In this document: positions 1,429-29,479 of the stretch, one piece after another | How the letters are laid out: every line of letters begins with the position of its first letter | How positions within the stretch are numbered: the first letter of the stretch is position 1 | From: Euzebyales bacterium | Lineage (GTDB): Bacteria > Actinomycetota > Nitriliruptoria > Euzebyales > JAHELV01 | Reading direction: 5' to 3' | NCBI GenBank assembly: GCA_035461305.1 | Contig: DATHVN010000077.1 | Location: 1-37,654 of the forward strand | DNA length: 37,654 bases | Notes under the pieces: generated by a model | Told to the model about the DNA's origin: nothing | What the model saw: the letters and a program-made list of their open reading frames with translations, nothing else | Databases searched by the model: none | Position numbers and translations under genes: made by a program

Positions 1429-1457
1429 TTGACGGCGCAGTCCGCGCCGGACACACT
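1429..1457 (+). promoter_or_regulatory. Candidate promoter of the demethylase-metF-fhs-folC operon
   Basis: TTGACG (1429-1434) is followed after a 17-bp spacer by CACACT (1452-1457). The -35 box is good and the -10 box is weak. It lies directly before the tandem inverted repeat at 1458-1494, so a protein bound there would cover the start of transcription. The implied leader is about 320 bases long. Confidence 0.45.
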
Positions 1458-1494
1458 GTTGCGCCATAAGCTCCTGCGTTTCACATGCAGCAAC
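1458..1494. promoter_or_regulatory. Tandem 17-bp inverted repeats, candidate IclR-type operator
   Basis: Site 1 is GTTGC-N7-GCTCC (1458-1474) and site 2 is GTTTC-N7-GCAAC (1478-1494). The outer half-sites GTTGC and GCAAC are perfect and the inner ones degenerate. Centres are 20 bp apart, about two helical turns, so two dimers could bind the same DNA face. The same 37-bp geometry occurs before soxB at 22629-22665, and exact single copies of GTTGC-N7-GCAAC occur at 23771 and 29463. The position, just after the -10 box, fits repression. Binding by an IclR protein is inferred, not shown. Confidence 0.6.
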
Positions 1495-1786: not shown

Positions 1787-2986
1787 TTGGCGATCAATGA
1801 GAACCCCGGCATCCTGCTGTACCCCCGGATCCGCCGGACGCCGTACTACTACGCGCACCGCGAGCACGGCGTGAAGCTGTACAGCGTCTACAACCGCATG
1901 TACCACCCGCGGTTGTACACCGACCCGCTGGACGAGTACGACGCGCTGGTCAACCGTGTGACGCTGTGGGACGTCAGCGTCGAGCGCCAGGTGCAGATCA
2001 CCGGGCCCGACGCCTTCGACTTCGCCAACATGCTCGTGCCACGCGATCTGACGAAATGCAGGGTCGGGCAGTGCAAATACGTGTTCATCACGTCGCCGGA
2101 GGGCGGCATCCTCAATGACCCGATCCTGCTGCGGCTGGAGGAGAACACCATCTGGCTGTCCCTGGCGGACAGCGACGTGCTGCTGTGGTGCAAGGGCCTG
2201 GCCTACAGCTCCGGGATGGACGTGCAGATCACCGAGCCCGACGTGGCGCCGGTGCAGATCCAGGGGCCGAGGGCCGCCGCCGTGGCCCACGACCTGTTCG
2301 GCGACAGCATCCTCGAGATCCCCTACTACCACGCCGAGGAGCGGGAGCTCGACGGCATGGACGTCGTGGTGTCGCGCACCGGGTTCTCGGGCGAGGTCGG
2401 GTACGAGATCTACCTTCGCAACGCGACCGGGCATGGCATCAAGCTGTGGAACACCGTGCTCGAGGCCGGCAGACCCCACGAGATCCAGGTGACCGGCCCG
2501 GGCCACATCCGGCGGATCGAGGGCGGCTTCCTGTCGCAGGGCAACGACATGGACTTCGACACCAACCCCTTCGAGGTCGGGTACGGCTTCGAGGAGACCT
2601 GGATGGTCGACCTCGACCAGGAGGCCGACTTCATCGGCAAGGACGCGCTCAAGCGGATCAAGGCCGAGGGCGTCAAGCGCAAGCTGGTCGGGGTGGAGAT
2701 CGGGGGCGGCCACGTCGGCTACTTCAGCGACGGCTCCATGCCGGACTTCTTCCCGGTGTTCGACCCCGCGTCCGGAGAGCCGGTCGGCAAGGTCACCTCG
2801 GCGACGTGGTCGCCCGCGCTGGAGCGCAACATCGGCTACGCCATGGTGCCCGTCCGCTACGAGCCCTACGGCACCGAGCTGGTCGTCGAGACCCAGCACG
2901 GACGCAACCAGGCCGTCATCGTCGAGAAGCCGTTCGTCGATCCGAGGAAGGACAGGCCCAAGCAGGACGCCGCGGCCATCGTCTGA
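1787..2986 (+). CDS. GcvT-family THF-dependent demethylase (DmdA-like)
   Basis: This 399-residue protein starts at TTG, supported by GGAGGAGGA six bases upstream. It belongs to the GcvT/aminomethyltransferase fold, which moves a methyl or methylene group from a substrate to tetrahydrofolate. From memory it resembles DMSP demethylase DmdA more than true GcvT: RRTPYYYAHREHGVKLYSVYN near the N terminus, WDVSVERQVQI, NDPILLRLEEN, LADSDVLLWCKGLA, then RRIEGGFLSQGNDMDFD and NPFEVGYG, followed by a C-terminal barrel domain. It heads an operon with a MetF-like reductase and Fhs. That layout recalls the ligM-metF-ligH genes for O-demethylation of methoxylated aromatics. The substrate could be DMSP, an N-methyl amine or betaine, or a methoxyaromatic acid. 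Context with sarcosine genes favours N-methyl compounds, but this is inference. Confidence 0.75.
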   Translation: MAINENPGILLYPRIRRTPYYYAHREHGVKLYSVYNRMYHPRLYTDPLDEYDALVNRVTLWDVSVERQVQITGPDAFDFANMLVPRDLTKCRVGQCKYVFITSPEGGILNDPILLRLEENTIWLSLADSDVLLWCKGLAYSSGMDVQITEPDVAPVQIQGPRAAAVAHDLFGDSILEIPYYHAEERELDGMDVVVSRTGFSGEVGYEIYLRNATGHGIKLWNTVLEAGRPHEIQVTGPGHIRRIEGGFLSQGNDMDFDTNPFEVGYGFEETWMVDLDQEADFIGKDALKRIKAEGVKRKLVGVEIGGGHVGYFSDGSMPDFFPVFDPASGEPVGKVTSATWSPALERNIGYAMVPVRYEPYGTELVVETQHGRNQAVIVEKPFVDPRKDRPKQDAAAIV

Positions 2987-3064: not shown

Positions 3065-3907
3065 ATGGCAGAGTCCGACAGCGAGCTCGTCCGGGCGTCG
3101 TTCGCGCGACCGCGCTTCGAGATCATCCCGATGAAGGGCGTCGAGGAGCAGCTGGCCCACCTGCCGGCGGACGCGGTGGTCACGGTCACGTCCTCGCCGA
3201 CCAGGGGCATCGACGCCACGCTGGCCCTCGCGGCGCTGCTGCGCCGCGAGGAGCTGCAGGTCGTGCCGCACGTGGCTGCCCGCTCGGTCGCCGACACGGT
3301 GCAGCTCAAGGACCTGCTCCAGCAGGTCTCCGACCTGGGCATCGATGACATCTTCGTGGTGGCCGGCGACGCCCAGGCACCGGCGGGCCAGTTCGAGGGC
3401 ACGGTGGACCTGCTGCGCGCTATGGCCGACCTCCGTCACTCGCTGCGCATCGGCATCACCGGATATCCCGAGAGCCACGCCTTCATCCCGGACGAGACGA
3501 CGATCGCCGTGATGCACGCCAAGGAGCCGTACGCGTCGTACATCGTCTCCCAGATCTGCTTCGACCCGCAGGTCACCGCCGGATGGGTGGCCGCCGTCCG
3601 TGCCAGGGGCACGCGCCTGCCGATCCACATCGGCCTGCCCGGCGCCGTCGACCTGGCCAAGCTCGTGCGCATCTCGATGCGTGTCGGCATCGGCGACTCG
3701 CTGCGCTTCGTCCGCAAGCAGGGCGGGACGGTGGCCAGGCTGATCGGCGGTTACCAGCCCGACGCGCTGGTCGAGGGGCTGCTGCCCACGCTGGCCGACC
3801 CGGCGATGGGCGTCGCCGGTTGGCACCTGTTCACATTCAACGAGATCCGTCGCACCGAGGCCTGGCGGCGGGACCTCCTCACACGGTACGCAAGGAGCGC
3901 ACGATGA
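3065..3907 (+). CDS. Methylenetetrahydrofolate reductase-like protein (MetF family)
   Basis: This 280-residue TIM-barrel protein has ATG at 3065 preceded by GGGAG. It resembles short, non-canonical MetF proteins: FEIIPMKG near the N terminus, VTVTSSPTRGIDATL, VVPHVAARS (VTPHxxAR-like), DDIFVVAGDAQ, and LPIHIGLPGAVDLAKLVR. MetF interconverts 5,10-methylene-THF and 5-methyl-THF. After a GcvT-type demethylase it would oxidise 5-methyl-THF back to methylene-THF so that folate is recycled. It overlaps fhs by four bases (ATGA), so the two are translationally coupled. Cofactor use is unknown; several residues of canonical MetF are hard to place, so a redox role other than classical NADH-FAD catalysis is possible. 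Confidence 0.8.
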   Translation: MAESDSELVRASFARPRFEIIPMKGVEEQLAHLPADAVVTVTSSPTRGIDATLALAALLRREELQVVPHVAARSVADTVQLKDLLQQVSDLGIDDIFVVAGDAQAPAGQFEGTVDLLRAMADLRHSLRIGITGYPESHAFIPDETTIAVMHAKEPYASYIVSQICFDPQVTAGWVAAVRARGTRLPIHIGLPGAVDLAKLVRISMRVGIGDSLRFVRKQGGTVARLIGGYQPDALVEGLLPTLADPAMGVAGWHLFTFNEIRRTEAWRRDLLTRYARSAR

Positions 3908-5604
3908 CCTTTCCCAGTGACCTCGAGATCGCCCGCGGCGCGGACCTGCAGCCGCTGGAGGACATCGCCCGGCAGATGGGCATCCGCCCGGATCTGCTGG
4001 AGCCGTACGGCCACGGTGTGGCCAAGATCTCGCTGGACGCGATCGACGCGCTGGCCGACCGGCCGCGCGCGAAGTACGTCGTGATCTCCGCCGTCACGCC
4101 GACCCCACTGGGCGAGGGCAAGACGACAACGACGGTCGGCCTGGGCCAGGGCTTCGGTCACATCGGCAGGCGCGCCACGATCGCCATACGCCAACCGTCG
4201 ATGGGCCCGACGTTCGGCATCAAGGGCGGCGCCGCCGGCGGTGGCTACAGCCAGGTCGTGCCGATGGAGCAGCTCAACCTGCACCTGACCGGCGACATGC
4301 ACGCGGTCACGGCGGCGCACAACCTGCTCGCCGCAATGATCGACAACCACATCCACCAGAACGACGACTTCTTCTCGACCGACCGCCACAGCATCACCTG
4401 GCGACGCGTGCTCGACGTCAACGACCGCGTGCTGCGCAACATCGTGGTCGGACTCGGTTCGCGGACCGACGGGGTGATCCGGCAGACGGGCTTCGACATC
4501 ACGGCCGCGTCGGAGGTGATGGCGATCCTGGCGCTGTCCACCTCGCTGCGGGACATGCGGGAGCGGATGGGCCGCATCGTGATCGGCAGCACGGTCGAGG
4601 GCAAGCCGATCACCGCCGAGGACCTGCGCGGCGCCGGTGCCATGACCGTCATCATGCGGGACGCCATCAAGCCCAACCTCATGCAGACCCTCGAGGGCAC
4701 GCCGGCGCTCGTGCACGCGGGACCCTTCGGCAACATCGCCCACGGCAACTCGTCGGTCGTCGCCGACCTCATCGGCATCCACGGTGGCGACTACCTGGTG
4801 ACCGAGGCCGGCTTCGGCGCCGACATGGGCGCCGAGCGCTTCTTCAACATCAAATGCCGCACGTCCGGACTGACGCCCGACGCCGCGGTCCTCGTCACCA
4901 CCGTCCGCGCGCTCAAGGCGCACTCCGGACGGTTCAGGATCATCGCCGGCAGGCCGTTGCCGGACGACCTGCTCGCCGAGAACCCGGACCACGTCCACGC
5001 CGGCGCGGCGAACCTGCGCAAGCAGGTCCAGAACATCCGACTCCACGGCGTGTCCCCCGTGGTCGCCATCAACGCCTTCCCGACCGACCATCCCAGCGAG
5101 CACGAGGCGATCCGCGAGATCGCCGCGGAGCTCGGAGCCCGGTCGGCGATCAGCACCCACTTCACCGACGGGGGTGCGGGCGCGGCGGAGCTGGCCGAGG
5201 CGGTCGCCGAGGCGGCGGAGGAGCGAACGGACTTCAGGTTCCTGTACCCCGACAGCGCGAGCCTGCGTGAGAAGATCGAGACGATCGCGATCAGGGTCTA
5301 CGGCGCGGACGGCGTCGAGTACGACCTGGCGGCGTCCCGGCAGCTCGACCGTTACGAGGAGGCGGGCTACGGCAACCTGCCGGTCTGCATCGCCAAGACC
5401 CACCTCTCGATCTCGTCGGACTCCAAGCTGAAGGGCGCACCGACCGGGTGGATGCTGCCGGTGCGGGAGGTGCGGGCGTCAGTCGGCGCGGGATTCATCT
5501 ACCCGATCTGCGGAGACATGCGAACGATGCCAGGCTTGTCGTCGCACCCGGCTGCCGAGCGCATCGACATCGACAGCGACGGCAACATCATCGGCCTCTC
5601 CTGA
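3904..5604 (+). CDS. fhs: Formate--tetrahydrofolate ligase
   Basis: The 566-residue protein has the expected length and motifs of 10-formyl-THF synthetase. These include the P-loop TPTPLGEGKTTTTVGL around residues 62-77, IRQPSMGPTFGIKGGAAGGG, the MEQLNLHLTGDMHA segment, and a long conserved C terminus (TMPGLSSHPAAERID). It forms 10-formyl-THF from formate, THF and ATP, or runs in reverse to make ATP when folate carries surplus one-carbon units. It begins inside the stop of the metF-like gene (ATGA). Together with the demethylase and MetF it would dispose of demethylation-derived carbon. FolD, needed between methylene- and formyl-THF, is not in this window and must be supplied elsewhere. Confidence 0.96.
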   Translation: MTFPSDLEIARGADLQPLEDIARQMGIRPDLLEPYGHGVAKISLDAIDALADRPRAKYVVISAVTPTPLGEGKTTTTVGLGQGFGHIGRRATIAIRQPSMGPTFGIKGGAAGGGYSQVVPMEQLNLHLTGDMHAVTAAHNLLAAMIDNHIHQNDDFFSTDRHSITWRRVLDVNDRVLRNIVVGLGSRTDGVIRQTGFDITAASEVMAILALSTSLRDMRERMGRIVIGSTVEGKPITAEDLRGAGAMTVIMRDAIKPNLMQTLEGTPALVHAGPFGNIAHGNSSVVADLIGIHGGDYLVTEAGFGADMGAERFFNIKCRTSGLTPDAAVLVTTVRALKAHSGRFRIIAGRPLPDDLLAENPDHVHAGAANLRKQVQNIRLHGVSPVVAINAFPTDHPSEHEAIREIAAELGARSAISTHFTDGGAGAAELAEAVAEAAEERTDFRFLYPDSASLREKIETIAIRVYGADGVEYDLAASRQLDRYEEAGYGNLPVCIAKTHLSISSDSKLKGAPTGWMLPVREVRASVGAGFIYPICGDMRTMPGLSSHPAAERIDIDSDGNIIGLS

Positions 5605-5636
5605 CGTCGAGGCGCCCGACCCATGCTGATGCTGCT

Positions 5637-6956
5637 GTGACCATCCTGCACACCACGACCGCCTACGAGCAGGCGATCACCGAGCTGTTCAACCGCCGGC
5701 CCGAGGTCATGGTGCCGGGGCTGCGGCGCATCCAGGCACTCGTGCACTCGATGGGCGAACCGCAGCGGGCGTACGCCGGGATCCACCTCACCGGCACGAA
5801 CGGCAAGACGTCGACCGCGCGCATGATCACGTCGCTGCTGCTGGCGGCCGGCGAGCGCGTCGGCACGTACACGTCGCCGCACCTGCAGGATGTGCGCGAG
5901 CGGTTCCGCATCGACGGTGAGCCGCTGGCAGTGGACGACCTGCTCGCCGGTCTGGACGCGCTGGGCCCACACATCGAGCGGGTCGAGCAGGCGACGGGCG
6001 AGATGGTCACGTTCTTCGAGGCATCGACCGCGCTCTGCCTGTGGGCGTTCGCCCGCGCTCGCGTGGACACGGGAGTCGTCGAGGTCGGCATGGGCGGCCG
6101 CTTCGACGCGACGAACGTGGTCGACGCCCACGTCGCAGTGCTCGGGCGGGTCCAGATGGATCACCCGCAACTGGGTGCCACCGTCGGCGAGATCGCCTGG
6201 GAGAAGGCCGGCATCACTGCCGACGGCGCGACCGTCATCTCGGCGAACACCGCAGGCCCGCCGGCGCATGTGATCGCCGAGGAGGTCGCCGAGCGGGGTG
6301 CCCGGCTGCACGTGCTCGACCGGGACTTCGGCGTGATCGCACGGACGCTGACGCCCCACGGTCAGCGCGTCAGCCTGCGCGGCCTGGGCGGGTCGGTGTT
6401 CACCGTCGACCTGCCCGTGCACGGCGCCCATCAGGCAGACAACGCCGCCTGTGCGCTCGCCGCGGTGCAGGCCCACACCGGCCAACCCCTGGAGTCGGCG
6501 GTCGTCCGTGCGGGCTTCGCAGGGGTCCGCTCCCCGGGCCGGCTGGAGCTGCTGTTCACCGACGACGGGATCCCGGTGCTGCTCGACGGTGCCCACAACC
6601 CCGCCGCGGCCCGGATGCTGGCCCGTTCGCTGCGCGAGCTGCACGGTGACCGGCGGCGCATCGCCGTGCTCGGTGTGATGGCCGACAAGGACATCCCCGC
6701 GATCGTGGACCAGCTGCGCCCGGTCGTCGACGAGGTCGTCGTCACGATGCCCGACAGCCCGCGCGCCGCCACCGCCGAACAGCTCGCCGCGGTGTGCCAC
6801 GCTGGCGGCCTGCCCGTCGCCGCGGGGGTTCCCGACGTCGGCGAGGCCGTCCGTGTCGCGGCGTGGCGTGCGGGCAGTCAGGGCATGGTCGTGGTCTCCG
6901 GCTCGCTGTACACGGTCGGCGACGCCCGCGCCGCGCTGGGTGGCGTCCCCGCCTGA
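5637..6956 (+). CDS. folC: Folylpolyglutamate synthase / dihydrofolate synthase
   Basis: The chosen start is GTG 5637, giving 439 residues, normal for FolC. Motifs: GIHLTGTNGKTSTARMI (Mur-ligase P-loop), TYTSPHLQDVRERFRID, EVGMGGRFDATNVVD, WEKAGI, and DGAHNPAAARML in the C-terminal domain. FolC adds glutamates to folates, trapping them in the cell and raising affinity of folate enzymes. It follows fhs by 32 bases, so folate retention is probably co-expressed with the one-carbon genes. The upstream Shine-Dalgarno is weak, so a somewhat later start cannot be excluded; no ATG in frame occurs close by. Confidence 0.93.
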   Translation: MTILHTTTAYEQAITELFNRRPEVMVPGLRRIQALVHSMGEPQRAYAGIHLTGTNGKTSTARMITSLLLAAGERVGTYTSPHLQDVRERFRIDGEPLAVDDLLAGLDALGPHIERVEQATGEMVTFFEASTALCLWAFARARVDTGVVEVGMGGRFDATNVVDAHVAVLGRVQMDHPQLGATVGEIAWEKAGITADGATVISANTAGPPAHVIAEEVAERGARLHVLDRDFGVIARTLTPHGQRVSLRGLGGSVFTVDLPVHGAHQADNAACALAAVQAHTGQPLESAVVRAGFAGVRSPGRLELLFTDDGIPVLLDGAHNPAAARMLARSLRELHGDRRRIAVLGVMADKDIPAIVDQLRPVVDEVVVTMPDSPRAATAEQLAAVCHAGGLPVAAGVPDVGEAVRVAAWRAGSQGMVVVSGSLYTVGDARAALGGVPA

Positions 6957-14920: not shown

Positions 14921-15688
14921 ATGTCACGCGCCAAACCGCGCGCCAGCCGGCCCGTCGCCGCCGTCGAACGTGCAGTCGCCGTGCTGGAGACGCTCGCGGA
15001 CGCCGACGGCGACCTGGGCACCAACGAGATCGCCCGGCGGACCAGGATCAACCCGAGCACGGTCTCGCGGCTGCTCGCGACGCTCGGCGGCGCCGGTCTC
15101 GTCGCCCACAGCGCCGAGACCGGCCGTTACCGCCTGGGGCTGCGCATGCTGCACTACGGCAACGCGGTGCTGTCCCGGCTCGATCTGCGCGAGGTCACCC
15201 GCGAGCATCTGCAGATGTTGACGACGGCGACCGGCGAGACCGCCACGCTGTCGGTCGCGGGTGGCGGCACCGCCCTGACGGTCGACTTCGTCCAGAGCCC
15301 AGCGTCGGTGCAGAGCGTGGCGACGCTCGGTCGGCCGAGCGTGGCGCATGCCACCGCAGTCGGCAAGGTGATGCTCGCGTTCACCGACCAGCGCCCCGAC
15401 GCGCCACTGACCGCGTTCACCGACGCGACGATCACCGACCCCGACCGGCTGCATGACGAGGTCGAGCGGACCCGGCAGCAGGGGTGGGCCGACGCGACCG
15501 GCGAGCGCGAGCAGGACCTCCACGCCGTCGCCGTGCCGGTCCGCAACGCCGACGGCGCACTGCTGGCCATCCTCGGCGTCCAGGGCCCGTCATGGCGCTT
15601 CGGCGCCGACGAGCGGCGGGCGGCGATCGAGCACCTTCAGCGTGCCGCACGGCAGATCGGTGCGACGTTCGCGGGACGCCCCGGCTGA
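14921..15688 (+). CDS. IclR family transcriptional regulator (first copy)
   Basis: The 255-residue protein starts at ATG 14921 after CAGGAG. It has an N-terminal winged helix (VAAVERAVAVLETLADADG, LGTNEIARRTRINPSTVSRLLATL) and a C-terminal IclR effector domain (HATAVGKVMLAF, AVAVPVRNADGALLAILGVQGP). IclR proteins sense small metabolites and act as repressors or activators, often as tetramers on tandem sites. It lies close to the sox operon. A single half-site GTTGC (14886-14890) precedes it, so it is a second candidate for binding the GTTGC-N7-GCAAC motif. The second IclR gene at 29471 has the full palindrome and is the stronger candidate. Confidence 0.9.
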   Translation: MSRAKPRASRPVAAVERAVAVLETLADADGDLGTNEIARRTRINPSTVSRLLATLGGAGLVAHSAETGRYRLGLRMLHYGNAVLSRLDLREVTREHLQMLTTATGETATLSVAGGGTALTVDFVQSPASVQSVATLGRPSVAHATAVGKVMLAFTDQRPDAPLTAFTDATITDPDRLHDEVERTRQQGWADATGEREQDLHAVAVPVRNADGALLAILGVQGPSWRFGADERRAAIEHLQRAARQIGATFAGRPG

Positions 15689-16292: not shown

Positions 16293-17324
16293 CTACAGCT
16301 GGCCACCGATGTCTACCTCCTGGCGCGCCAGGCGCACGTCCGTGCCCAGGAACGCGTGCTTGGCCATGTCGGGCGAGAACCGCGACGCGGGCGGCGTCCG
16401 CCCGAGTGCCTCGGCCATCGCGCGCACGTGGTGCGGACCGGCGCCGCAGCACAGCCCGAGCCAGCGCACCCCAGTCTGGTGGGCCGCGACTGCGAAGTCG
16501 GCGACCTCGAACCGGTGGCACGTGAACGGATCGAGCGCGGTCGGGAACGGCCGGTCGCCCGGCAGCTCACCCTGGTAGGCGGGGTCGCGCAGCGACTGGA
16601 AGGTCGGCTCGTCGGTCGTCGTGCGGTATGGGACGGGCAGCGCCGCCACCGGCACGTCGACCGCGGCGACGATCCCGTCGAGCAGCGGCAGCATCGTCGC
16701 CGGCCCCCGGATGCAGTTGAGGCCCACGACCCGCGCTCCCGCGTCCTGCAGGCGCCGGCACGTCTCCGCGTAGGTCCACCCCTCCCGGGTCGTGCCCGAG
16801 CGGTGCGGCGCCAAGGTGATCACCGCCGGCAGGCCGGCCGCGGCGACGACCTCCAGGGCGACCAGCGCCTCCTGCCCCCACCAGAACGTCTCGCCGATCA
16901 CCAGGTCGACGCCGGCCTCAGCCATCCACCCGACCTGCTCGGTGAACATCGCGGTCACTTGTCGCACCCGTTCGGCGTCGTCGGGCTCGAACACGTTGGT
17001 GTTGCAGACGTTGCCCGCGAACAGCGTCCCGGTGTCCGCCGCGACCTGCGCGGCGATGTCGAGCGCGGTCCGGTTGAGCGGCTCGAGGTGGTGCTCACGC
17101 CCGATCACCCGCAGCTTCTCGCGATGCGCGTAGTACGTGAACGCCTGGATGACGTCCGAGCCGGCGCGCACGAACTCGGTGTGCAGCTGCGCGACCTTCT
17201 CGGGGTGATCGAGCACCACCTCGGGCACGAACGCGCCCGCCTGCAGGTAGCCGCGCCGTTCGAGCTCGAACAGATAGCCCTCGGCGCAGATGATCGTTGC
17301 GTCGGTCATGCGGTCCAGGAGCAC
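16293..17324 (-). CDS. Betaine--homocysteine S-methyltransferase-like protein
   Basis: The GTG start at 17324 is preferred because AAGGA lies seven bases upstream; an ATG at 17309 is the alternative. The 343-residue protein shows the homocysteine methyltransferase barrel with zinc ligands Cys204 (GLNCIRGP) and Cys292-Cys293 (GLCCGAGPHHVRAMAE). The N-terminal run EGYLFELERRGYLQAG and the QAFTYYAHREKL segment resemble animal BHMT more than MmuM. The reaction would be betaine plus homocysteine to dimethylglycine plus methionine. It is the last gene of the soxB-soxD-soxAG operon, 75 bases after soxAG, so it could deliver dimethylglycine to the same demethylation route. The methyl donor is inferred. 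Confidence 0.82.
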   Translation of the reverse strand: MLLDRMTDATIICAEGYLFELERRGYLQAGAFVPEVVLDHPEKVAQLHTEFVRAGSDVIQAFTYYAHREKLRVIGREHHLEPLNRTALDIAAQVAADTGTLFAGNVCNTNVFEPDDAERVRQVTAMFTEQVGWMAEAGVDLVIGETFWWGQEALVALEVVAAAGLPAVITLAPHRSGTTREGWTYAETCRRLQDAGARVVGLNCIRGPATMLPLLDGIVAAVDVPVAALPVPYRTTTDEPTFQSLRDPAYQGELPGDRPFPTALDPFTCHRFEVADFAVAAHQTGVRWLGLCCGAGPHHVRAMAEALGRTPPASRFSPDMAKHAFLGTDVRLARQEVDIGGQL

Positions 17325-17399: not shown

Positions 17400-20300
17400 T
17401 CACGGGTTGAAGCCGTCGACGGCCAGGCCGAGCGTACGACCCGCGTGGAAGACCTCGTCGAACAGGTACCGACCCGACGACCACTCGCAGCCCAGAAGAT
17501 ACGAGCGCACGCCGTCCCGGTCGTCTCGGATGAGGTCGGTCGTGACCGCCGCCACCAGGGTGCGCAGCGCGGTTCCGTCGGGGGTGACGGTGTCGTGCAG
17601 ATCGATCGCGCAGATCCCCGCGAGCACCTCGGCGGCCGCGTCGCCGGTCAGCCGGAGCAGCGCACGACCGTGGGTCTGGTCGATCACCGTCACGTGCTCG
17701 TCGAGCTCGGCGGCCCTGTCGGCGAGACGACTGACCACCTCGCGGTCCTCGGGTGGTGCGAGCACGATCCACTCGCCTGGCCCGACGCCGCATGCCAGCG
17801 TGCCGTCCGGTCGCCGCACGGCCCGGCCGGCCGGACCAAGGCCGTGGACCATCGCACCGTCGCGCGGCGCGACGATCCAGACCTTGCGCAGCGGTGTGTG
17901 GTCGGCCAGCCGCAGCGCGGCGGCGCTCCGGCCGGTGCCGATCTCCCAACCGCCGACGTACCCGACCGGTCCGGCCGGCCGGATCGGGGTGCGCGCGACG
18001 GCCGGCGCGGACGGGACCGCCCGAGGGGTGTCCTCCCACGGGTGCTCCGCGCGCAGGCGGTCGCCCTCGGGGTCGACGTGCGCGAGTCGCGCGGTCACAC
18101 GTGCCGGGACACGCCGGCCATCGGGCAGCTTGACCGTGACCAGCGTGTCGGGCGCCGCCAGGTGCGGAGCCACGTGGCCGAGGCAGATCGACCGCTCCAG
18201 CGTCGGGGACATCCGGCTGGACGTGATGCGGCCGACGATCGTGGACGTCCCCTCAACGATCTGGCTCGCCTCGGCCGGCACGATCGACCCGTCGACCGGC
18301 TGCAGGCCGACGAGCCGGTCGTAGTCGCCGCGGGCGCGTTGCCACGCCAGCTCCGGCAGGCCCGCGAAGTCGTCCTTGTCGAGCTTGATGGCCCAGCCCA
18401 GGTCGGCGCCATACGCCTGCGTCAGCCCGTCGGTGTCCTGCCCGACGATGGCGTGCCCCTTCTCGAGCCGCAGGATGCGCTGGGCTTCGACCCCGAAGGG
18501 ACGGCTCCCAAGATCCTGTCCTGCCGCGAGCAGGCTGGTCCACACGTGGAGGCCGTACCCCGAGGGCACGTGGACCTCGTAGCTGAGCTCGCCGGTGAAG
18601 CCGATGCGCCACATGAAGCAGCCGCCGACGCCGGCGACGGTCGCGCGGCGCACCCGCATGTACCCGAACGCGTCCGGACCCACGTCGACGTGGTCGACGA
18701 GCCGCGCCAGGAGCTCACGCGACCGCGGTCCGGCGACGTTCATGCTGGCGTAGGCGGTGGTGACCGGGGTGACGTGAACCTGCCATCCGGGGCGCTCGGT
18801 CTGCAGCCAGTTCTCGACCCACTCCCACACCGTCAGCGCCCCGGACGATGTGGTGGTCATGATGTAGTGGTCGGTGCCGAGCCGGCCAGTGACACCGTCG
18901 TCGAGCACGACACCGTCCTCGGCGCACATGACCCCGTAACGCACGGAGCCGACCGGCAGCTTCGACCACTTGTTGACGTACAACTGGTTCAACAGCCTGG
19001 GCACGTCCGGTCCGCGCAGGTCGAGCTTGCCCAGCGGGGTCACGTCGATGACGCCGACCTGTTCGCGGACATTGCGCGCCTCGCCCTCGGGGTCGCCGTA
19101 ATGGTCGGGTCGGATCCACGCGCCCGCGACCAGCGGGGCCGCGCCGTGCTCCTCGTGCCAATCGTTCATCGGGCTGCGCCTGATCGGTTCATGGATCCGG
19201 CCGGCGAGTGCGCCGAGGCTGACCGGGACGTACGGGGGGCGCCAGACCGTCGTGCCCGTCCGGTCGATGTCGCGGCCGGTCGCCTCGGCGACCACCGCGA
19301 CGGTGTTGACGACCTCGAGCTTGCCCTGGAGCGGCCCCATCGTGGCGGTCGTGTAGCGCTTGGCCAGCTCGATGTGGTCGTAGCCCTCGGCGACCGCGCT
19401 CATGAGCTCCCTGGACGTCACGTCCTCGGAGAAGTCGACGAAGCCGTGCGTGCGCCCCAGGAACAACGGCGGGTGTGGTGCGACGGGCAGGGTCGGCGGC
19501 GGGTCGGCCTCCGCGCCGGCCTCGTGGGCGCCGTCAGCCGCACGATGTGCCGCCTGTGCGACCGCCCGCCGGCCGACCGCGCGGCCGTGCTCGACCAGCT
19601 GCGAGAGCGTGCCATCGCCGGCGATCCCGCCGGCCGCCATGACGTCGTCGGGCATGCCCGCGGGGAGGAACCGGGACGCGGAGTCGTCCCACGTGGGCTG
19701 GCCACCCGACATGTTCAGCAGCGACGTCGGTGCCGTCCACCCCGTCGCGGTGACCAGCAGGTCGCATGTGATCGTGCGCCCGTCGCCGCACTCGACGGCC
19801 TCCAGGCCCCGGCGGCCGCGCGCACGGACGATGTCGCCGCCGCGGCGGGCGTCGAGCACGGCGCGGACGTCGACCCCCGCCCGGGCGAGGTCGGCTGCGG
19901 CGGCGTCGCCCTCGGCGTTCGCGGTCAGCACCACCGCCGACGTGCCGGGCCGCACGGCGTACAGGTTGATCAGGCGTCGGACGCCGGTGGACAGCATCAC
20001 GCCAGGCAGGTCGTTGCCCTCGAACACGTAGGGGCGCTCGATCAGGCCCGCCGCAACGACGAGGGTACCCGCGCGCGCCTTGATGAGCCGCTCGGTCACG
20101 TGCGCCAGGCCGCGCTGGACGACGGCGATCCAGTTGCCGTCGTACCGTCCCGTGACGGCCGCGTCGGTCAGCACCTCGACGCCGGCGGCGGCCACGGCGG
20201 CGCGCAGCTCGTCCGCAGCGGCCCGCCGGTCGGCGTCACCCCAGCGCAGGTGCCCGCCGAGCGCACGCTCCTCCTCGACGAGCATGACGCGCGCGCCGTC

Positions 20301-20864
20301 CTCCGCGGCGGCCGCGGCGGCCGCCATGCCCGCGGGACCGCCGCCGGCGACGAGCACGTCGACGTGGGCGTGGCGGTGGTCGTAGGTCGCGTCAGGGGGT
20401 GACGCAGGCACCGTCCCACCGGCCGCGAATCGGCGCAGCACGCGCTCGTACGCGGGCCACAGTGGCCGCGGCGCCATGAACGTCTTGTAGTAGAAGCCCG
20501 AGGTCAGGAACCTGGCCACGAGCTGGTTGACCGCCTTGACGTCGAAGCGCAGCGACGGCCAGACGTTCTGCGCACGGACGTCCATGCCGTCGGCGACCGG
20601 GCGGTGGGCACCGCGGACGTTCGGCTCTTCGTCCACCTGCACCATGCAGCCGGGCTCGTGGAAGCTCGCGGTCAGCAGGCCGCGCGGGCGGTGGTACTTG
20701 AACGAGCGCGAGAACACCCGCACGCCGTGGGCGGCGAGCGCAGACGCGATGGTGTCGCCCGCGTACCCCCGGTGGGTGGCACCGTTCCACGTGAAGCGCA
20801 CCTGGTGCGCGCGGTCGATCACCTCGCCGGGCTGGACGCCCAGCCGCATGACGTGGTAGCTCAC
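17400..20864 (-). CDS. soxA: Sarcosine oxidase alpha subunit fused to gamma subunit (SoxA-SoxG)
   Basis: This 1154-residue protein starts at GTG 20864 inside the soxD stop (GTGA). Residues 1-130 form the SoxA N-terminal ferredoxin-like domain (RGYAGDTIASALAAHGVRVF, SFKYHRPRG). Next comes an FAD/NAD-binding domain (DVLVAGGGPAGMAAAAAAAE near 170-190), then a GcvT-like folate domain from about 600 (YVNKWSKLPVGSVRYGVM, IGFTGELSYEVHVP, and EAQRILRLEKGH). SoxA normally ends near residue 960. Here about 165 more residues (990-1154) match SoxG: TPLRKVWIVAP, VIDQTHGRALLRLTG, and RSYLLGCEWSSGRYLFDE. SoxA oxidises sarcosine with SoxB and passes the methylene group to THF, giving glycine, methylene-THF and H2O2. 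The fusion fixes alpha:gamma stoichiometry at 1:1. No separate soxG was seen. Confidence 0.92.
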   Translation of the reverse strand: MSYHVMRLGVQPGEVIDRAHQVRFTWNGATHRGYAGDTIASALAAHGVRVFSRSFKYHRPRGLLTASFHEPGCMVQVDEEPNVRGAHRPVADGMDVRAQNVWPSLRFDVKAVNQLVARFLTSGFYYKTFMAPRPLWPAYERVLRRFAAGGTVPASPPDATYDHRHAHVDVLVAGGGPAGMAAAAAAAEDGARVMLVEEERALGGHLRWGDADRRAAADELRAAVAAAGVEVLTDAAVTGRYDGNWIAVVQRGLAHVTERLIKARAGTLVVAAGLIERPYVFEGNDLPGVMLSTGVRRLINLYAVRPGTSAVVLTANAEGDAAAADLARAGVDVRAVLDARRGGDIVRARGRRGLEAVECGDGRTITCDLLVTATGWTAPTSLLNMSGGQPTWDDSASRFLPAGMPDDVMAAGGIAGDGTLSQLVEHGRAVGRRAVAQAAHRAADGAHEAGAEADPPPTLPVAPHPPLFLGRTHGFVDFSEDVTSRELMSAVAEGYDHIELAKRYTTATMGPLQGKLEVVNTVAVVAEATGRDIDRTGTTVWRPPYVPVSLGALAGRIHEPIRRSPMNDWHEEHGAAPLVAGAWIRPDHYGDPEGEARNVREQVGVIDVTPLGKLDLRGPDVPRLLNQLYVNKWSKLPVGSVRYGVMCAEDGVVLDDGVTGRLGTDHYIMTTTSSGALTVWEWVENWLQTERPGWQVHVTPVTTAYASMNVAGPRSRELLARLVDHVDVGPDAFGYMRVRRATVAGVGGCFMWRIGFTGELSYEVHVPSGYGLHVWTSLLAAGQDLGSRPFGVEAQRILRLEKGHAIVGQDTDGLTQAYGADLGWAIKLDKDDFAGLPELAWQRARGDYDRLVGLQPVDGSIVPAEASQIVEGTSTIVGRITSSRMSPTLERSICLGHVAPHLAAPDTLVTVKLPDGRRVPARVTARLAHVDPEGDRLRAEHPWEDTPRAVPSAPAVARTPIRPAGPVGYVGGWEIGTGRSAAALRLADHTPLRKVWIVAPRDGAMVHGLGPAGRAVRRPDGTLACGVGPGEWIVLAPPEDREVVSRLADRAAELDEHVTVIDQTHGRALLRLTGDAAAEVLAGICAIDLHDTVTPDGTALRTLVAAVTTDLIRDDRDGVRSYLLGCEWSSGRYLFDEVFHAGRTLGLAVDGFNP

Positions 20865-21184
20865 GCCGGCCCTCCAGCACGGTCACCACCGGGCGGCTCA
20901 CCGGCGTGAATGCGCACCCCGGACGCGCCGCCCGGTGGCGGCGCCTCACGAACGCCGCGCACCTCGTTGGTCACCGTGTGCCGCTCGACGGCCAGGTAGC
21001 GGCGGCAGCCGCTGCGATGCAGCCAGGTCTCGTCGGTCCATCCCGCCGGGTTCGCCCGCACGTTCAGGTAGGCGCGCCAGGCCGACGGGTCTGCCGTGGC
21101 TGGGTCCGGCCGTACGTGGCGCTCACCGACGTAGCGGAACTCGGCGACGTCACGCGGACCGCAGTTAGGGCAGTCGAGCTGCAT
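20861..21184 (-). CDS. soxD: Sarcosine oxidase delta subunit
   Basis: The start is ATG 21184 (MQLDCPNCGPRDVAEF), giving 107 residues, normal for SoxD. A longer reading frame upstream runs through the duplicated repeat and is not used. The zinc-binding cysteines are in CPNCG (5 and 8) and near the HRSGCRRYL segment, as in known SoxD, and AYLNVRANPAG and HTVTNEVRGV are family-typical. The delta subunit is a small zinc protein at the alpha-beta interface. It overlaps soxAG by GTGA. Its ribosome binding site, GGAGCGAG, lies within the repeat copy at 21187-21232, so the repeat supplies the translation signal. Confidence 0.9.
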   Translation of the reverse strand: MQLDCPNCGPRDVAEFRYVGERHVRPDPATADPSAWRAYLNVRANPAGWTDETWLHRSGCRRYLAVERHTVTNEVRGVREAPPPGGASGVRIHAGEPPGGDRAGGPA

Positions 21185-21186
21185 CA

Positions 21187-21298
21187 CTTGTTCGTCTCGC
21201 TCCGCATGAAGCTCCGCTCGACTCGCAACGGCCCAGGGAGCCTCCGGCACACCTTGTTCGTCTCGCTCCGCATGAAGCTCCGCTCGACTCGCAACGGC
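21187..21298. repeat. Duplicated 46-bp repeat between soxB and soxD
   Basis: Two identical 46-bp copies, 21187-21232 and 21253-21298, are repeated with a 66-bp period. Read on the minus strand, both would encode LRVERSFMRSETNK in a spurious 69-codon frame. Each copy contains the 7-mer GCGGAGC twice with a 5-base gap. The copies are inserted between two genes of one operon and abut the soxD start. I recognise no transposase or target-site duplication. The structure resembles a small dispersed (REP-like) element, possibly shared by other sites in the genome. Confidence 0.75.
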
Positions 21299-21346
21299 TC
21301 GGAAATCCTCCCGCGCATAGTGCTCATCCCTCGTGTCCGTCCCGGC

Positions 21347-22606
21347 TCAGTGTCCGACCGCCGCGGCGCCCTTCTCACCGACCAGCCGGCCATCGGTGAA
21401 GCGGGCGAGGTCGAAGTCCGCGATGAGCTCGGGGGTCTTGCCGGTCGCGATCAGCTCGGCCATCGTCTCGCCCGCGACGGGCCCCGCCTTGAATCCGTAC
21501 GTGCCCCAGCCCACATCGACCAGGAACCCCTCGACGGGTGTCACGCCCATGATCGGGGAGAAGTCCGGGGTCATGTCGCACAGGCCGGCCCACTGGCGCA
21601 GCAGGCGCAGCTGCGACAACGACGGCATCAGCTGCAGGACGTGCCCGGCGAGCCCCTCGGTGAACGCGAGGCTCCCACGGGTCGAGTACGACGCGAAGGG
21701 GTCGACCGACGCGCCGAACACCAGCTCGCCGCGGTCGGTCTGACTCAGGTACACGTGCAGCGTGCCCGACACGATGACGGTCGGCAGGAAGGGCCTGACC
21801 GGTTCAGTCACTGCGGCCTGGAGGGGGAATGTGGTGACGGGCAGGCGCACGCCGGCCATGTCCGACACGAGCGTCGACCAGCCGGCGGTGCAGTTGACGA
21901 CGATCGGCGCGGCGATCTCGCCCTGCGTCGTCGTGACGCCGCGCACCCGTCCGTCGGCGACGGTTACGCCGGTGACCTCGGTGTGCTGGTGGATGCGCAC
22001 TCCGTGTGCGTCCGCGGCTCGCCCGTAGCCCCACACCACGGCGTCGTGGCGGATGATGCCACCGGGCGGGTGATACAGGGCGCCGAGGATCGGGTAGCGC
22101 GCGGCCGTCGAGACGTCCAGCGGCGGTGCGAGGCGCTTGACCTCCGCGGGATCCACGACCTCCGAGTCGACGCCCTGCAGCTTGTTGACCTCCGCCCTCC
22201 AGCGCATGGTCCGCAGCGAGCTGTCGCTGTGGGCGAGCGTCATGTGGCCGCGCTGGGAGAACATGACGTTGAAGTTCAGCTCGGTCGCGAGCCGCTCGTA
22301 CAGCTGCACCGACCGGTCGTAGAACCGTACGCCCTCGGGGGTCAGGTAGTTGGAGCGGATGATCGCGGTGTTGCGACCGGAGCCGCCTCCGCCGATGTAG
22401 CCCTTGTCGAGCACCGCGACGTCGGTGATCCCGTGGTTGGCCGCCAGGTAGTAGGCCGCCGCGAGCCCGTGGACCCCGCCGCCGATGACCACGACGTCGG
22501 CCGTGGAACGTAGGTCCGGTGATCGCCAGACCCTCGGCCATGGCGTCGCCGTCGCGCCCCGCCGGAGCAGTTCGAAGGCCGAGTACCGGGTGCGCGGGCG
22601 TCGCAT
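21347..22606 (-). CDS. soxB: Sarcosine oxidase beta subunit
   Basis: The 419-residue protein starts at ATG 22606. It has the DAO-family Rossmann motif VVVIGGGVHGLAAAYYLA (38-55), the flavin loop GGGGSGRNTAIIRSNYLTPEG, and a C-terminal CDMTPDFSPIMGVTPVEGFLVDVGWGTYGFK. These match SoxB, which holds the sarcosine-oxidising flavin and a covalent FMN at the interface with SoxA. It is the first gene of the operon, with soxD, soxAG and bhmt behind it. A likely -10 box, TACTAG, lies only about 13 bases before the start, so the leader would be very short and no good ribosome binding site is visible. The operator at 22629-22665 is directly upstream. Confidence 0.93.
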   Translation of the reverse strand: MRRPRTRYSAFELLRRGATATPWPRVWRSPDLRSTADVVVIGGGVHGLAAAYYLAANHGITDVAVLDKGYIGGGGSGRNTAIIRSNYLTPEGVRFYDRSVQLYERLATELNFNVMFSQRGHMTLAHSDSSLRTMRWRAEVNKLQGVDSEVVDPAEVKRLAPPLDVSTAARYPILGALYHPPGGIIRHDAVVWGYGRAADAHGVRIHQHTEVTGVTVADGRVRGVTTTQGEIAAPIVVNCTAGWSTLVSDMAGVRLPVTTFPLQAAVTEPVRPFLPTVIVSGTLHVYLSQTDRGELVFGASVDPFASYSTRGSLAFTEGLAGHVLQLMPSLSQLRLLRQWAGLCDMTPDFSPIMGVTPVEGFLVDVGWGTYGFKAGPVAGETMAELIATGKTPELIADFDLARFTDGRLVGEKGAAAVGH

Positions 22607-22618
22607 CAGGGCGACAGC

Positions 22619-22624
22619 CTAGTA
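22619..22624 (-). promoter_or_regulatory. Candidate -10 box of the sox operon
   Basis: TACTAG on the minus strand ends 12 bases before the soxB ATG, implying an almost leaderless message. Its -35 region falls inside the tandem inverted repeat 22629-22665, so a bound regulator would block polymerase. No clear -35 hexamer is visible. Confidence 0.4.
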
Positions 22625-22628
22625 TGCG

Positions 22629-22665
22629 GTTGCCCCTGCACCACCACCATTTCAACTACGGCAAC
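22629..22665. promoter_or_regulatory. Tandem 17-bp inverted repeats before soxB, candidate IclR-type operator
   Basis: Site 1 is GTTGC-N7-CCACC (22629-22645) and site 2 is ATTTC-N7-GCAAC (22649-22665). The outer half-sites are perfect and the inner ones degenerate. Centres are exactly 20 bp apart, and the total length is 37 bp, identical to the element at 1458-1494. The site lies directly upstream of the soxB -10 box and in the shared region with the divergent nudC gene. Together with the exact copies at 23771 and 29463 it suggests one regulator for all these genes. Confidence 0.6.
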
Positions 22666-23770: not shown

Positions 23771-23787
23771 GTTGCCATGAGCGCAAC
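23771..23787. promoter_or_regulatory. Exact GTTGC-N7-GCAAC inverted repeat, candidate IclR-type operator
   Basis: GTTGCCATGAGCGCAAC has perfect 5-bp arms around seven bases. It ends 14 bases before the ATG at 23802, just ahead of the AGGGAG ribosome binding site, and lies downstream of the predicted -10 box. Its arms and spacing are the same as at 29463-29479, at the start of the second IclR gene. A bound protein would block elongation or initiation. Confidence 0.65.
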
Positions 23788-23801: not shown

Positions 23802-25142
23802 ATGACGTCGCTGCCACCGTCAAGCCCGTACGTGGTCATCGGCGCGGGCGTGCACGGGCTGTCCACAGCGTGGCACCTGGCCAGGCGCCTGCACGCGTCC
23901 GGCCGTGGGGTCGGTGCCGACGTGCTGGTCATCGACAAGACCGCCGTGGGCGCGGGCGCATCCGGCATCGCCTGTGGTGTCGTGCGCAACAACTACTTCC
24001 AGCCGGCGATGCGGCGCCTCATGGCCCACTCGGTGGGGGTCTGGGAGTCCGACCCGGACGCGTTCGCGTACCACCCGGTCGGCTACGTGCAGATCTCCCA
24101 CGAGACGATGCACGACGACGTCGCCCGCATCCACGCCGAGCAGGTCGACATCGGCTACCCCTCGACCTTCATCGAGGGGGAGCGTGCCAGCGCGCGCTAC
24201 CTGCGCGGCCTGTTCGCCGACTGGCGGGCGCGCAACATCACGAGCGTGCTCCACGAGAAGCGGGGCGGCTTCGCCCACAACACCGCGTCCCTCGAGGGCC
24301 TGGCGGCCAAGGCCACTGCGGAGGGCGTCCGGATCGTCACGGGACCGCGGGTCACCGGCCTGCGCCGCGAGGACGGCGGCGCGGTCGACGCGGTCGAGAC
24401 CGACCGCGGCACAGTCCGCTGCGATCAGGTCGTCGTCGCCGTGGGGCCGTGGGTCCGCGATCTCTGGGCGATGCTGGACCTGCCGGCGACCATCACCGTG
24501 CGCGACGGCGAGGGCGGGCTGCACGACGACGTCACCATGTGGACCTACTGGCTGCTGCAGGAGGGCATGCTCGACGTCGACCCCGGCATCCTGACCGACG
24601 AGCAGGGGCACCTACCCCCGGTCGTCCACGTCGACACCGACGCTCCGTTGCACGACGCGGACGGCGCGCTGGTCACCGACCAGCCGTGGGGGATCTACTA
24701 CAAGCCCGACGGCGCCGTCGGCGGGGTGCAGGGCGGCACCATGCCGGTCCGCGTCGACGCGCCCGCCGGCGGCGTCGCCGTCGATCCCTACGGCCCGGCC
24801 AGTCCCCACTTCGTCGTTGGAGACGACTTCGCACGGATGTGGACCGCTGCACTCGCCCACTGCCACAGTCGCTTCGCCGACGCCGCGGACCACTTCCGGC
24901 GCGAGCGGTCCGGAGGCATCGGCTGTTTCACCCCCGACAGCTTCCCCGTGTTCGACACGTTCCGGGAGAACGCCTACGTGATCGCCGACTCGAACCACGG
25001 CTACAAGATGATCGGTGTGGGCGACCTGGTGGCCGCCGAGCTGCTGGGGGAGCCGCAGGAACTGCTCGAGCCGTTCCGCTTCACCCGGTACGAACAGGGC
25101 CGGCTCCACCCGGTGAGCAGGTCACCGTTCCCGTGGAGCTGA
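23802..25142 (+). CDS. SoxB-like FAD-dependent oxidoreductase (DAO family)
   Basis: The 446-residue protein starts at ATG 23802 after AGGGAG; an ATG at 23777 is in another frame. It has the Rossmann motif YVVIGAGVHGLSTAWHLA (10-27), GASGIACGVVRNNYFQPAM (flavin loop, comparable to IRSNYLTPEG in SoxB), and a C-terminal GCFTPDSFPVFDTFRENAYV and NHGYKMIGVG. This places it with sarcosine oxidase beta and dimethylglycine oxidase flavin domains. It has no folate domain. With its operator shared with the sox genes, a role as dimethylglycine or related N-methyl amine dehydrogenase is plausible, but the substrate is inferred. It is a single-gene unit that converges with the flavodoxin-like gene. Confidence 0.82.
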   Translation: MTSLPPSSPYVVIGAGVHGLSTAWHLARRLHASGRGVGADVLVIDKTAVGAGASGIACGVVRNNYFQPAMRRLMAHSVGVWESDPDAFAYHPVGYVQISHETMHDDVARIHAEQVDIGYPSTFIEGERASARYLRGLFADWRARNITSVLHEKRGGFAHNTASLEGLAAKATAEGVRIVTGPRVTGLRREDGGAVDAVETDRGTVRCDQVVVAVGPWVRDLWAMLDLPATITVRDGEGGLHDDVTMWTYWLLQEGMLDVDPGILTDEQGHLPPVVHVDTDAPLHDADGALVTDQPWGIYYKPDGAVGGVQGGTMPVRVDAPAGGVAVDPYGPASPHFVVGDDFARMWTAALAHCHSRFADAADHFRRERSGGIGCFTPDSFPVFDTFRENAYVIADSNHGYKMIGVGDLVAAELLGEPQELLEPFRFTRYEQGRLHPVSRSPFPWS

Positions 25143-27162: not shown

Positions 27163-27915
27163 TCAGCGGTCGAGGAAGCGGCGGACGTGCTCCTGCGCCA
27201 CGTCCGACTGGAACAGCCGTGCCGACAACGCACCCATGGCCGGGCCGTCGCGGTCGATCCGCTCGACGAGGGGACTGCTGAGCAGGCGCTTGGTGGCCAC
27301 CAGCCCCTGGCGTGGCGAGGCGGCCAGCCGACCGGCCAGCACCTCGACCGCGTCGTCGAGCTCGTCGGGCGCGACCGCGTCCGACACCAGCCCGACCCGC
27401 GCGGCGTGTGCGCCGTCGAACGCGTCGCCGCCCAGCAGCAGGCGGGCGGCGTCGCGGTCTGACAGGCGCGGGACCACCACCGTCGAGATGACCGCGGGGG
27501 CCAGGCCCAGCCTGACCTCCCCCAACGCGAACGTCGCTTCGGTGGACGCGATCGCTAGGTCGCACGCAGCGACCAGCCCGACGCCCCCCGCGCGCACCGG
27601 GGCGTGGACGACCGCGACGATCGGTACCGGGAGCGCGACCATCGCGCGCAACACGGCGAGCATGCGCGTCGACGTCTCGGCCTGCGCAGCCACGTCCGCC
27701 GTCGCGGCCTCCTTCAGGTCCGCGCCGCCGCAGAACGCAGGGCCCTCGGCGCGGAGCATCGCGACCCGGGCCTCGTCGTCGGCGGCGACGTCGGTGAGCG
27801 CCGACGCCAGCTGGGCGAGCAGGGCCCGCGACAGCGCGTTGCGGTTCGCCGGCGACGACAGCGTGATGGTGTGCACAACGCCGTCGCGGGTCGCGCGGAC
27901 CAGCGCGTCACCCAT
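27163..27915 (-). CDS. Enoyl-CoA hydratase/isomerase family protein
   Basis: The ATG at 27915 gives 250 residues and lies 8 bp inside the 3' end of the Rieske gene (ATG begins before the upstream TGA). The crotonase fold is marked by PAFCGGADLKEA (oxyanion hole), APVRAGGVGLVAACDLAIA, and FALGEVRLGLAPAVIS with the catalytic Glu. The EVRLGLAPA pattern resembles methylglutaconyl-CoA hydratases (LiuC/AUH) and related hydratases. The natural substrate is unknown. Its tight coupling to a Rieske oxygenase suggests shared expression, possibly in catabolism of a carnitine- or betaine-like compound or a branched acid, but the link is speculative. Confidence 0.85.
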   Translation of the reverse strand: MGDALVRATRDGVVHTITLSSPANRNALSRALLAQLASALTDVAADDEARVAMLRAEGPAFCGGADLKEAATADVAAQAETSTRMLAVLRAMVALPVPIVAVVHAPVRAGGVGLVAACDLAIASTEATFALGEVRLGLAPAVISTVVVPRLSDRDAARLLLGGDAFDGAHAARVGLVSDAVAPDELDDAVEVLAGRLAASPRQGLVATKRLLSSPLVERIDRDGPAMGALSARLFQSDVAQEHVRRFLDR

Positions 27916-29206
27916 CGGCGGCCGCCCGCAGCATCGTCTCGGCCGACACCTGCTCGGCGTCGACAACGGCGAACATCGGATCATCGCCGTCGCCGCCGGG
28001 GATCCGGTCGACGCCGACCATGCGGTCGATGACCATGTTCTGGAAGCGGTGCAGGGGCTCCTCGAACCGGAAGCACATGCGCCCGCCGGTGTACGCCTCG
28101 GAGGCGATGCCCTCCTGGACCCGCTCCACGATGGTGATGTCCTCGGTGTTGACGTGATCCCAGAACGCGGCGAGCAACTCGAGCGCGGGACCGGTGGTGG
28201 GGTCGTCGGCGGTGTGGGGCGGCAGGCCGATCGTGGTGCGCTCGATCGTGCGGTCGTGCGCGACCGGCGTCGCGAGCACCGTGAAGACGTGGTTGGGCAG
28301 CACCGACACTGCGAGGTTCGGCAGGATCCAGATGAACCGCCCGCTGACGGCGTCGTCGGCGTCGAGGCCGGGTGGGCTGGTCAGCGCCGTCCAGCCCGAC
28401 GCGGTGTCGGTGTTGATCGGCGACGTCGACATGCCCGTGTAGAGCCCGGGGCCTTGGAAGCGGTGGTGGTCCTCGATGCGCGAGACCTTCACCAGCTCTG
28501 GATGCACCCATGGCAGGTGGTAGTACTCCATGAAGTTCTCCGCAACCAGCTTCCAGTTCGCCGCGACGTCGTAGGACCGCTCGGCCACGACCGTCATGTC
28601 GTCCAGCCCGTAGCCCGCCAGGCGCTGCGGCAGGTCGCCGAGACTGACGTCCAGTGGCGGTGGCTGCTCCTCGAGGCTGACGAACACCACGTTCGCCCAC
28701 GACGTCACGTGCACCGGCAGCAACCCGTAGTCGGCCTTGTCGAATGCCGGCAGGTGGCTGGTGTCGAAGATGGGCCGCTGGTCGTCGGGGATGCCCGAGC
28801 CTTCGAACAGCGGAGCTCCGAGCAAGGTGCCGTCCAGCGCGTACGCCCAGCTGTGGTATGGGCAGCGGAACCGCTTGAGGCGGCAGGACTCCTCGGTCAC
28901 GAGGCGTGACGCACGGTGGCGGCACACGTTGTGGAAGCCGCGCAGCGTGCCCGTGCGGTCCTGGGTGAGGATGATCGACTGGCCGGCGACCGAGACGGTG
29001 CGCACGTCCCCAGGCACCGCCAGATCGGTGACGTGGGCCGCGGCCACCCAGCCGTGGGTGAACACGCGGCGGCGCTCGACCTCGAAGAACGCCGGGGAGC
29101 GGTACGCCTCGGGCACGAGCGTGCCCGCGTACTCGACCGGGGCCCTGGTCTGGGCGTAGGTCTCTTCGTGCAGGTAGTCCTCGGGCGTGAAGCGATCTGC
29201 GGACAT
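27908..29206 (-). CDS. Rieske non-heme iron oxygenase, alpha subunit (betaine/choline monooxygenase-like)
   Basis: The ATG at 29206 follows GGGAGGT; the protein has 432 residues. The Rieske [2Fe-2S] ligands are Cys95 and His97 (NVCRHRAS) and Cys115 and His118 (RCPYHSW). The catalytic domain has NWKLVAENFMEYYH and LPWVHPELV, giving His230 and His235 as iron ligands with Glu227 in the bridge region. In such proteins the third iron ligand is an acidic residue further on. The form recalls GbcA and choline monooxygenases, which remove or hydroxylate an N-methyl group of betaine or choline. Sarcosine, BHMT and folate genes nearby favour this, but the substrate is inferred. The partner ferredoxin reductase (GbcB-like) is not in the window. 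Confidence 0.82.
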   Translation of the reverse strand: MSADRFTPEDYLHEETYAQTRAPVEYAGTLVPEAYRSPAFFEVERRRVFTHGWVAAAHVTDLAVPGDVRTVSVAGQSIILTQDRTGTLRGFHNVCRHRASRLVTEESCRLKRFRCPYHSWAYALDGTLLGAPLFEGSGIPDDQRPIFDTSHLPAFDKADYGLLPVHVTSWANVVFVSLEEQPPPLDVSLGDLPQRLAGYGLDDMTVVAERSYDVAANWKLVAENFMEYYHLPWVHPELVKVSRIEDHHRFQGPGLYTGMSTSPINTDTASGWTALTSPPGLDADDAVSGRFIWILPNLAVSVLPNHVFTVLATPVAHDRTIERTTIGLPPHTADDPTTGPALELLAAFWDHVNTEDITIVERVQEGIASEAYTGGRMCFRFEEPLHRFQNMVIDRMVGVDRIPGGDGDDPMFAVVDAEQVSAETMLRAAADG

Positions 29207-29395: not shown

Positions 29396-29437
29396 AACAT
29401 ACGCCGATCTTTCCAGTATTGTTTCCTACTACGCATT
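29396..29437 (-). promoter_or_regulatory. Candidate promoter and degenerate operator of the Rieske gene
   Basis: On the minus strand, TATGTT (29401-29396) could be the -10 box and GAAACA (29425-29420) a -35 box with an 18-bp spacer. Overlapping the latter is GTTTC-N7-GCATT (29421-29437), which matches seven of ten arm positions of the GTTGC-N7-GCAAC motif. Its centre is 42 bp from that of the exact site at 29463. The Rieske leader would be about 190 bases. Confidence 0.35.
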
Positions 29438-29479
29438 GACTTCGAACCGCCCGTTCGACACCGTTGCATCATGAGCAAC
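29436..29479 (+). promoter_or_regulatory. Promoter and operator of the second IclR gene
   Basis: TTGACT (29436-29441) and a weak -10 box (29459-29464) are separated by 17 bases. That spacer is exactly TCGAAC-N5-GTTCGA (29442-29458), a palindrome. Over the start of the gene lies GTTGCATCATGAGCAAC (29463-29479), exact 5-bp arms around seven bases that include the ATG at 29471. No ribosome binding site is visible and the -10 box is only about 6 bases before the ATG, so the message is probably leaderless. The palindrome over the start suggests autoregulation. Confidence 0.6.

Follow-up and report, generated by a model that had tools for sequence, protein, structure and literature searches.

One class of operators described for the IclR family, GTT-11-AAC, is a 17-bp palindrome of the form GTT-N11-AAC, and tandem copies have their centres 18–22 bp apart, a spacing attributed to tetramers (Suvorova and Gelfand 2021, PMC8222616). 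Relative to the gene start, published IclR sites are frequent at −20 to −80 and at −3 to +1; extra sites occur about four turns away, and the modal but not obligatory fourth base of the arm is Y, with R on the other arm (PMC8222616). The words betaine, dimethylglycine and sarcosine are absent from the main text of that paper. Described regulators of sarcosine and betaine catabolism are SouR of Pseudomonas, the sigma54-dependent SoxR of Bacillus thuringiensis, and the LysR-type SoxR of Arthrobacter (PMC4941409). All three control sarcosine oxidase genes, as is proposed here, but none is an IclR protein. A literature search for IclR together with sarcosine, dimethylglycine or betaine found nothing relevant.

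The window, that is the whole 37,654-nucleotide stretch analysed, encodes two IclR proteins, termed here IclR1 and IclR2 (Table 1). The best NCBIfam match of both is BhcR, an IclR-family protein of the same fold but with another gene neighbourhood, and the scores (203 bits for IclR2 and 151 bits for IclR1) lie below the cut-off of 350. The recognition-helix residues are HKSTAFR in IclR2 and NPSTVSR in IclR1. Two 37-bp elements, one before a demethylase gene and one before soxB, are very probably IclR-family operators of a betaine regulon, as judged from sequence comparison, and IclR2 is most likely its main regulator.

Table 1. Features of the window discussed in the text
Feature	Position	Strand	Details
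Demethylase promoter	1429–1457	+	−35 TTGACG 1429–1434, 17-bp spacer, −10 CACACT 1452–1457
Demethylase tandem operator	1458–1494	+	GTTGC-GCCATAA-GCTCC-TGC-GTTTC-ACATGCA-GCAAC, 37 bp; dyad a 1458–1474, dyad b 1478–1494; centres 20 bp apart
DmdA/GcvT-like folate-dependent demethylase	1787–2986	+	GCV_T domains
MTHFR-like, formate-THF ligase, FolC	3065–6956	+	3065–3907, 3904–5604, 5637–6956
IclR1	14921–15688	+	HTH_IclR and IclR_C above Pfam cut-offs
BHMT-like gene	16293–17324		after soxA
soxB, soxD, soxA	17400–22606	−	soxB 21347–22606, soxD 20861–21250, soxA with fused soxG-like end 17400–20864
soxB −10 box	22616–22621	−	TAGGCT, 9 nt before ATG
soxB tandem operator	22629–22665	−	GTTGC-CCCTGCA-CCACC-ACC-ATTTC-AACTACG-GCAAC, 37 bp; dyads 22629–22645 and 22649–22665; centres 20 bp apart
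Perfect dyad before FAD oxidase	23771–23787	+	GTTGC-CATGAGC-GCAAC
FAD oxidase	23802–25142	+	DAO family, SoxB-like
Rieske oxygenase, GbcA-like	27908–29206	−	divergent from iclR2
Half-degenerate dyad	29421–29437	+	GTTTC-CTACTAC-GCATT; 42 bp (about four turns) upstream of iclR2 dyad
Perfect dyad over iclR2 start codon	29463–29479	+	GTTGC-ATCATGA-GCAAC; putative autoregulatory operator
IclR2	29471–30271	+	HTH_IclR and IclR_C above Pfam cut-offs

The 17-bp dyad as the repeating unit

The original prediction described the two 37-bp elements as tandem inverted repeats with perfect outer arms, degenerate inner arms and identical spacing, and this description is correct base for base at both sites. It also held that such a pairing is by itself hard to explain by chance, which does not stand. 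Shuffles predict 0.03 occurrences of the outer-arm pattern GTTGC-N27-GCAAC in the window, and two are present; however, the window contains 120 perfect 5-bp arm pairs with an N27 spacer, and 25 five-base words recur at least twice in this arrangement. Genome-wide, the pattern has 9 matches and its reversed control also 9, and six of the seven further matches lie inside called genes. As a genome-wide signature the outer-arm pattern is thus ruled out. What makes the 37-bp pair convincing is its conservation at the same promoters of congeneric genomes together with the two perfect 17-bp dyads elsewhere in the window (Table 1), neither of which was part of the original prediction.

The repeating unit is the 17-bp dyad GTTGC-N7-GCAAC. 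There are five perfect copies in the 4.24-Mb genome; none of the five is in coding sequence, and four are upstream of betaine-related genes, namely those for the FAD oxidase, IclR2, a dimethylglycine oxidase and a betaine-type ABC transporter, the last three being regulon members that had not been predicted. The dimethylglycine-oxidase homologue matches PDB 1pj5 (E 6e-167), and all four genomes of the genus (the source genome and three congeneric ones, one of them a Nitriliruptorales MAG) retain its site in tandem form, spaced by 18 bp. The dyad upstream of the ProW/ProV-type transporter is kept in G003, and in G001 it precedes a related transporter operon. The fifth copy (L162:1502–1518, G000:C164:4101) lies between purM and adenosine deaminase, upstream of the latter, and has no clear betaine link.

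Across 20 outgroup regions, the density of near-matches to the dyad is twentyfold higher in non-coding DNA (0.52/kb) than in coding DNA (0.026/kb), and tandems precede a formate-THF ligase gene (G034), an MTHFR-like gene (G047) and others. A further 80 named loci, chosen by IclR similarity alone and including two that repeat genomes already in use, contain 36 non-coding and 6 coding sites, compared with 0 and 3, respectively, for the reversed control. Among these loci, many Streptomyces relatives of IclR2 have no perfect dyad in the flanks examined. In G000, G002 and G003, a genome-wide profile search found nothing but regulon sites, with E of only about 1 per site and a profile trained on these same sites. 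Those matches to GTTKC-N7-GMAAC in the genus that lie within coding regions (G003:C54, G002:C48 and G002:C17 among them) were set aside as chance, judged by gene context. In G057, a perfect dyad (L180:5375–5391) lies between a metK-like gene and a putative glycine/sarcosine N-methyltransferase gene, the latter assigned by eye from the resemblance of its start; this dyad hints that betaine synthesis may be controlled as well.

The original prediction counted random spread over the genome and lack of conservation as arguments against an operator. The 17-bp unit is neither randomly spread nor unconserved, whereas the 37-bp outer-arm pattern alone behaves as its control does. That the two elements are coincidental inverted repeats, as the recurring words and the equal genome-wide counts might suggest, is highly improbable given the conservation of orthologous promoters, the start-codon dyads found across the phylum and the 36 non-coding sites against none in the reversed control. 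For the demethylase and iclR2 sites, conservation refutes chance.

The sites agree in several respects with those in PMC8222616. Among 43 collected GTTGC-N7-GCAAC sites, the arm bases GTT/AAC are present in 98–99%, as in the GTT-11-AAC palindrome. Tandem centres are 20 bp apart at the demethylase and soxB operators, 18 bp at the dimethylglycine oxidase and 18–19 bp in outgroups, all within the published 18–22 bp, and the start-codon position and the extra site about four turns away also have published counterparts. Unlike the published consensus, in which the modal fourth arm base is Y, the fourth base here is G in 88% and T in 12% of half-sites. The predicted assignment to IclR-type operators, with a pair of dimer sites spaced as for a tetramer before one-carbon genes, is supported by a geometry that equals that of published IclR operators. 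Proteins outside the IclR family can also have short dyads of this type as sites, and real operators of another regulator family could look alike. This alternative appears unlikely, in view of the phylum-wide dyad at the iclR2 start codon, the IclR-typical geometry and the presence of IclR relatives in most such clusters.

Probable operators at the demethylase, soxB and iclR2 promoters

At the demethylase, all four genomes of the genus share the promoter TTGACG-N17-CACACT and, abutting it, the operator, in which 28 of 37 bases are invariant; the predicted transcription start is covered by the operator. Similar tandem dyads, their centres 18–19 bp apart, precede demethylase orthologues in other families (G041, G005 and G019). 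The encoded protein scores 348 bits against the NCBIfam model of the DMSP demethylase DmdA, below the cut-off of 410, and its nearest solved structure is 3tfh. The MTHFR-like, formate-THF ligase and FolC genes, whose order is kept in the genus, presumably belong to the same operon. A leader of about 290–300 nt (1495–1786) separates the operator from the demethylase gene, and the transcript would begin in the operator. Such a long leader could also point to a riboswitch or attenuator acting at the RNA level. An Rfam search of the window, demethylase leader included, matched no RNA family, the leader 3′ of the operator is poorly conserved and diverges within the genus, and the soxB copy lies upstream of its −10 box, outside the transcript; an RNA element is thus scarcely credible.

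The soxB operator is positioned differently: it lies over the −35 region. Of the four soxB promoters compared within the genus, three (G000, G001 and G002) have the operator, with 25 of 37 bases invariant, and it is absent in G003. The −10 box is kept as TAGG[CG]T, and the transcript is leaderless or near-leaderless. SoxB scores 512 bits against TIGR01373 (sarcosine oxidase beta), just below the NCBIfam cut-off of 529; the name is supported by the soxBDA gene order, which is kept in the genus. The SoxA frame (1154 aa) has a SoxG-like C-terminal part at residues 1023–1118, an apparent alpha–gamma fusion. The dyad before the neighbouring FAD oxidase is conserved in G001 and G002, with variants in G017 and G048.

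The four genomes of the genus all have the dyad over the iclR2 start codon in an identical position, and it recurs at iclR start codons in other Actinomycetota, namely G104, Planosporangium, Nonomuraea, Actinospica and Streptacidiphilus. The upstream element GTTTC-N7-GCATT and its exact 42-bp distance to this dyad are likewise kept in four genomes; the element overlaps the −35 region. Relatives of IclR2 are found within betaine and one-carbon gene clusters, and among 78 loci selected for IclR similarity, 58 contain demethylase, dimethylglycine-oxidase, sox or folate genes. The divergent Rieske oxygenase scores 164 bits against the glycine betaine monooxygenase model, below the cut-off of 670.

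One regulator or two paralogues

According to the original prediction, a single regulator would tie demethylation and sarcosine oxidation together. This is possible but not favoured: there are two IclR paralogues, and the soxB and FAD-oxidase sites differ from the others and track IclR1. Their half-sites read GTTGCC in 9 of 12 cases, compared with 1 of 34 among the other half-sites of the genus and 3 of 53 for the named IclR2 loci; species in this comparison are not independent, so that P ~1e-6 overstates the difference. The remaining sites read GTTGC[GTA]. In G061, IclR1 immediately precedes soxB, and in G048 it is flanked by the FAD oxidase and soxB; both loci have GTTGCC half-sites. Within the genus, soxB and FAD-oxidase sites occur only where IclR1 does. 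G003 represents a natural joint loss of IclR1, the soxB operator and the FAD oxidase, and it keeps four sites, at the demethylase, dimethylglycine-oxidase, transporter and iclR2 genes. Since these sites are kept there without an IclR1 orthologue, IclR2 is the better candidate in that genome.

It is therefore more likely that the paralogue IclR1 reads the soxB and FAD-oxidase operators, which are near-copies of the other sites, with cross-talk possible. A stricter form of this proposal, in which IclR2 would read GTTGC[GTA] (demethylase, dimethylglycine oxidase, transporter and itself) and IclR1 would read GTTGCC (soxB and FAD oxidase), the two being insulated by one base, seems to us evenly balanced between right and wrong. 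Alternatively, IclR2 may bind every site, including those of soxB and the FAD oxidase, while IclR1 does something else. The arms and spacing shared by both 37-bp sites would agree with this, as would several actinobacteria that cluster sox genes with an IclR2 relative, and there are exceptions to the association with IclR1: G017 has a dyad in the interval separating the FAD oxidase from a transporter gene, G104 has one before a DAO gene, and an IclR1 orthologue was not found in either genome. Set against the GTTGCC half-sites, the joint loss in G003 and the adjacency in G048 and G061, a single regulator is a tentative option.

Proposed mechanism and significance

In the preferred reading, each 37-bp operator would accommodate two dimers or one tetramer on the same DNA face, through two 17-bp dyads 20 bp apart. 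The regulon would comprise glycine betaine uptake and stepwise demethylation (betaine, dimethylglycine, sarcosine, glycine) along with folate one-carbon genes. IclR2 would bind the demethylase operator, its own start codon, and the promoters of the dimethylglycine oxidase and the betaine-type ABC transporter. It would mostly repress and be released by a pathway metabolite; repression is proposed as the main mode because the sites are located at −10 boxes or immediately 3′ of them. The sites over the transcription start of the demethylase and the start codon of iclR2 suggest repression at these two genes. At soxB, where it is upstream of the −10 box, the operator could serve for activation or for blocking of the −35 region.

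The mechanism is an ordinary one, the operators are genuine and well conserved, and the regulon is not described in the literature searched, nor is any IclR regulator for glycine betaine catabolism in Actinomycetota. The analysis thus predicts a transcriptional regulator and its operator sequence for glycine betaine catabolism in this phylum. If the two-paralogue split is true, it would be a clean natural case of duplicated regulators with near-identical sites staying apart.
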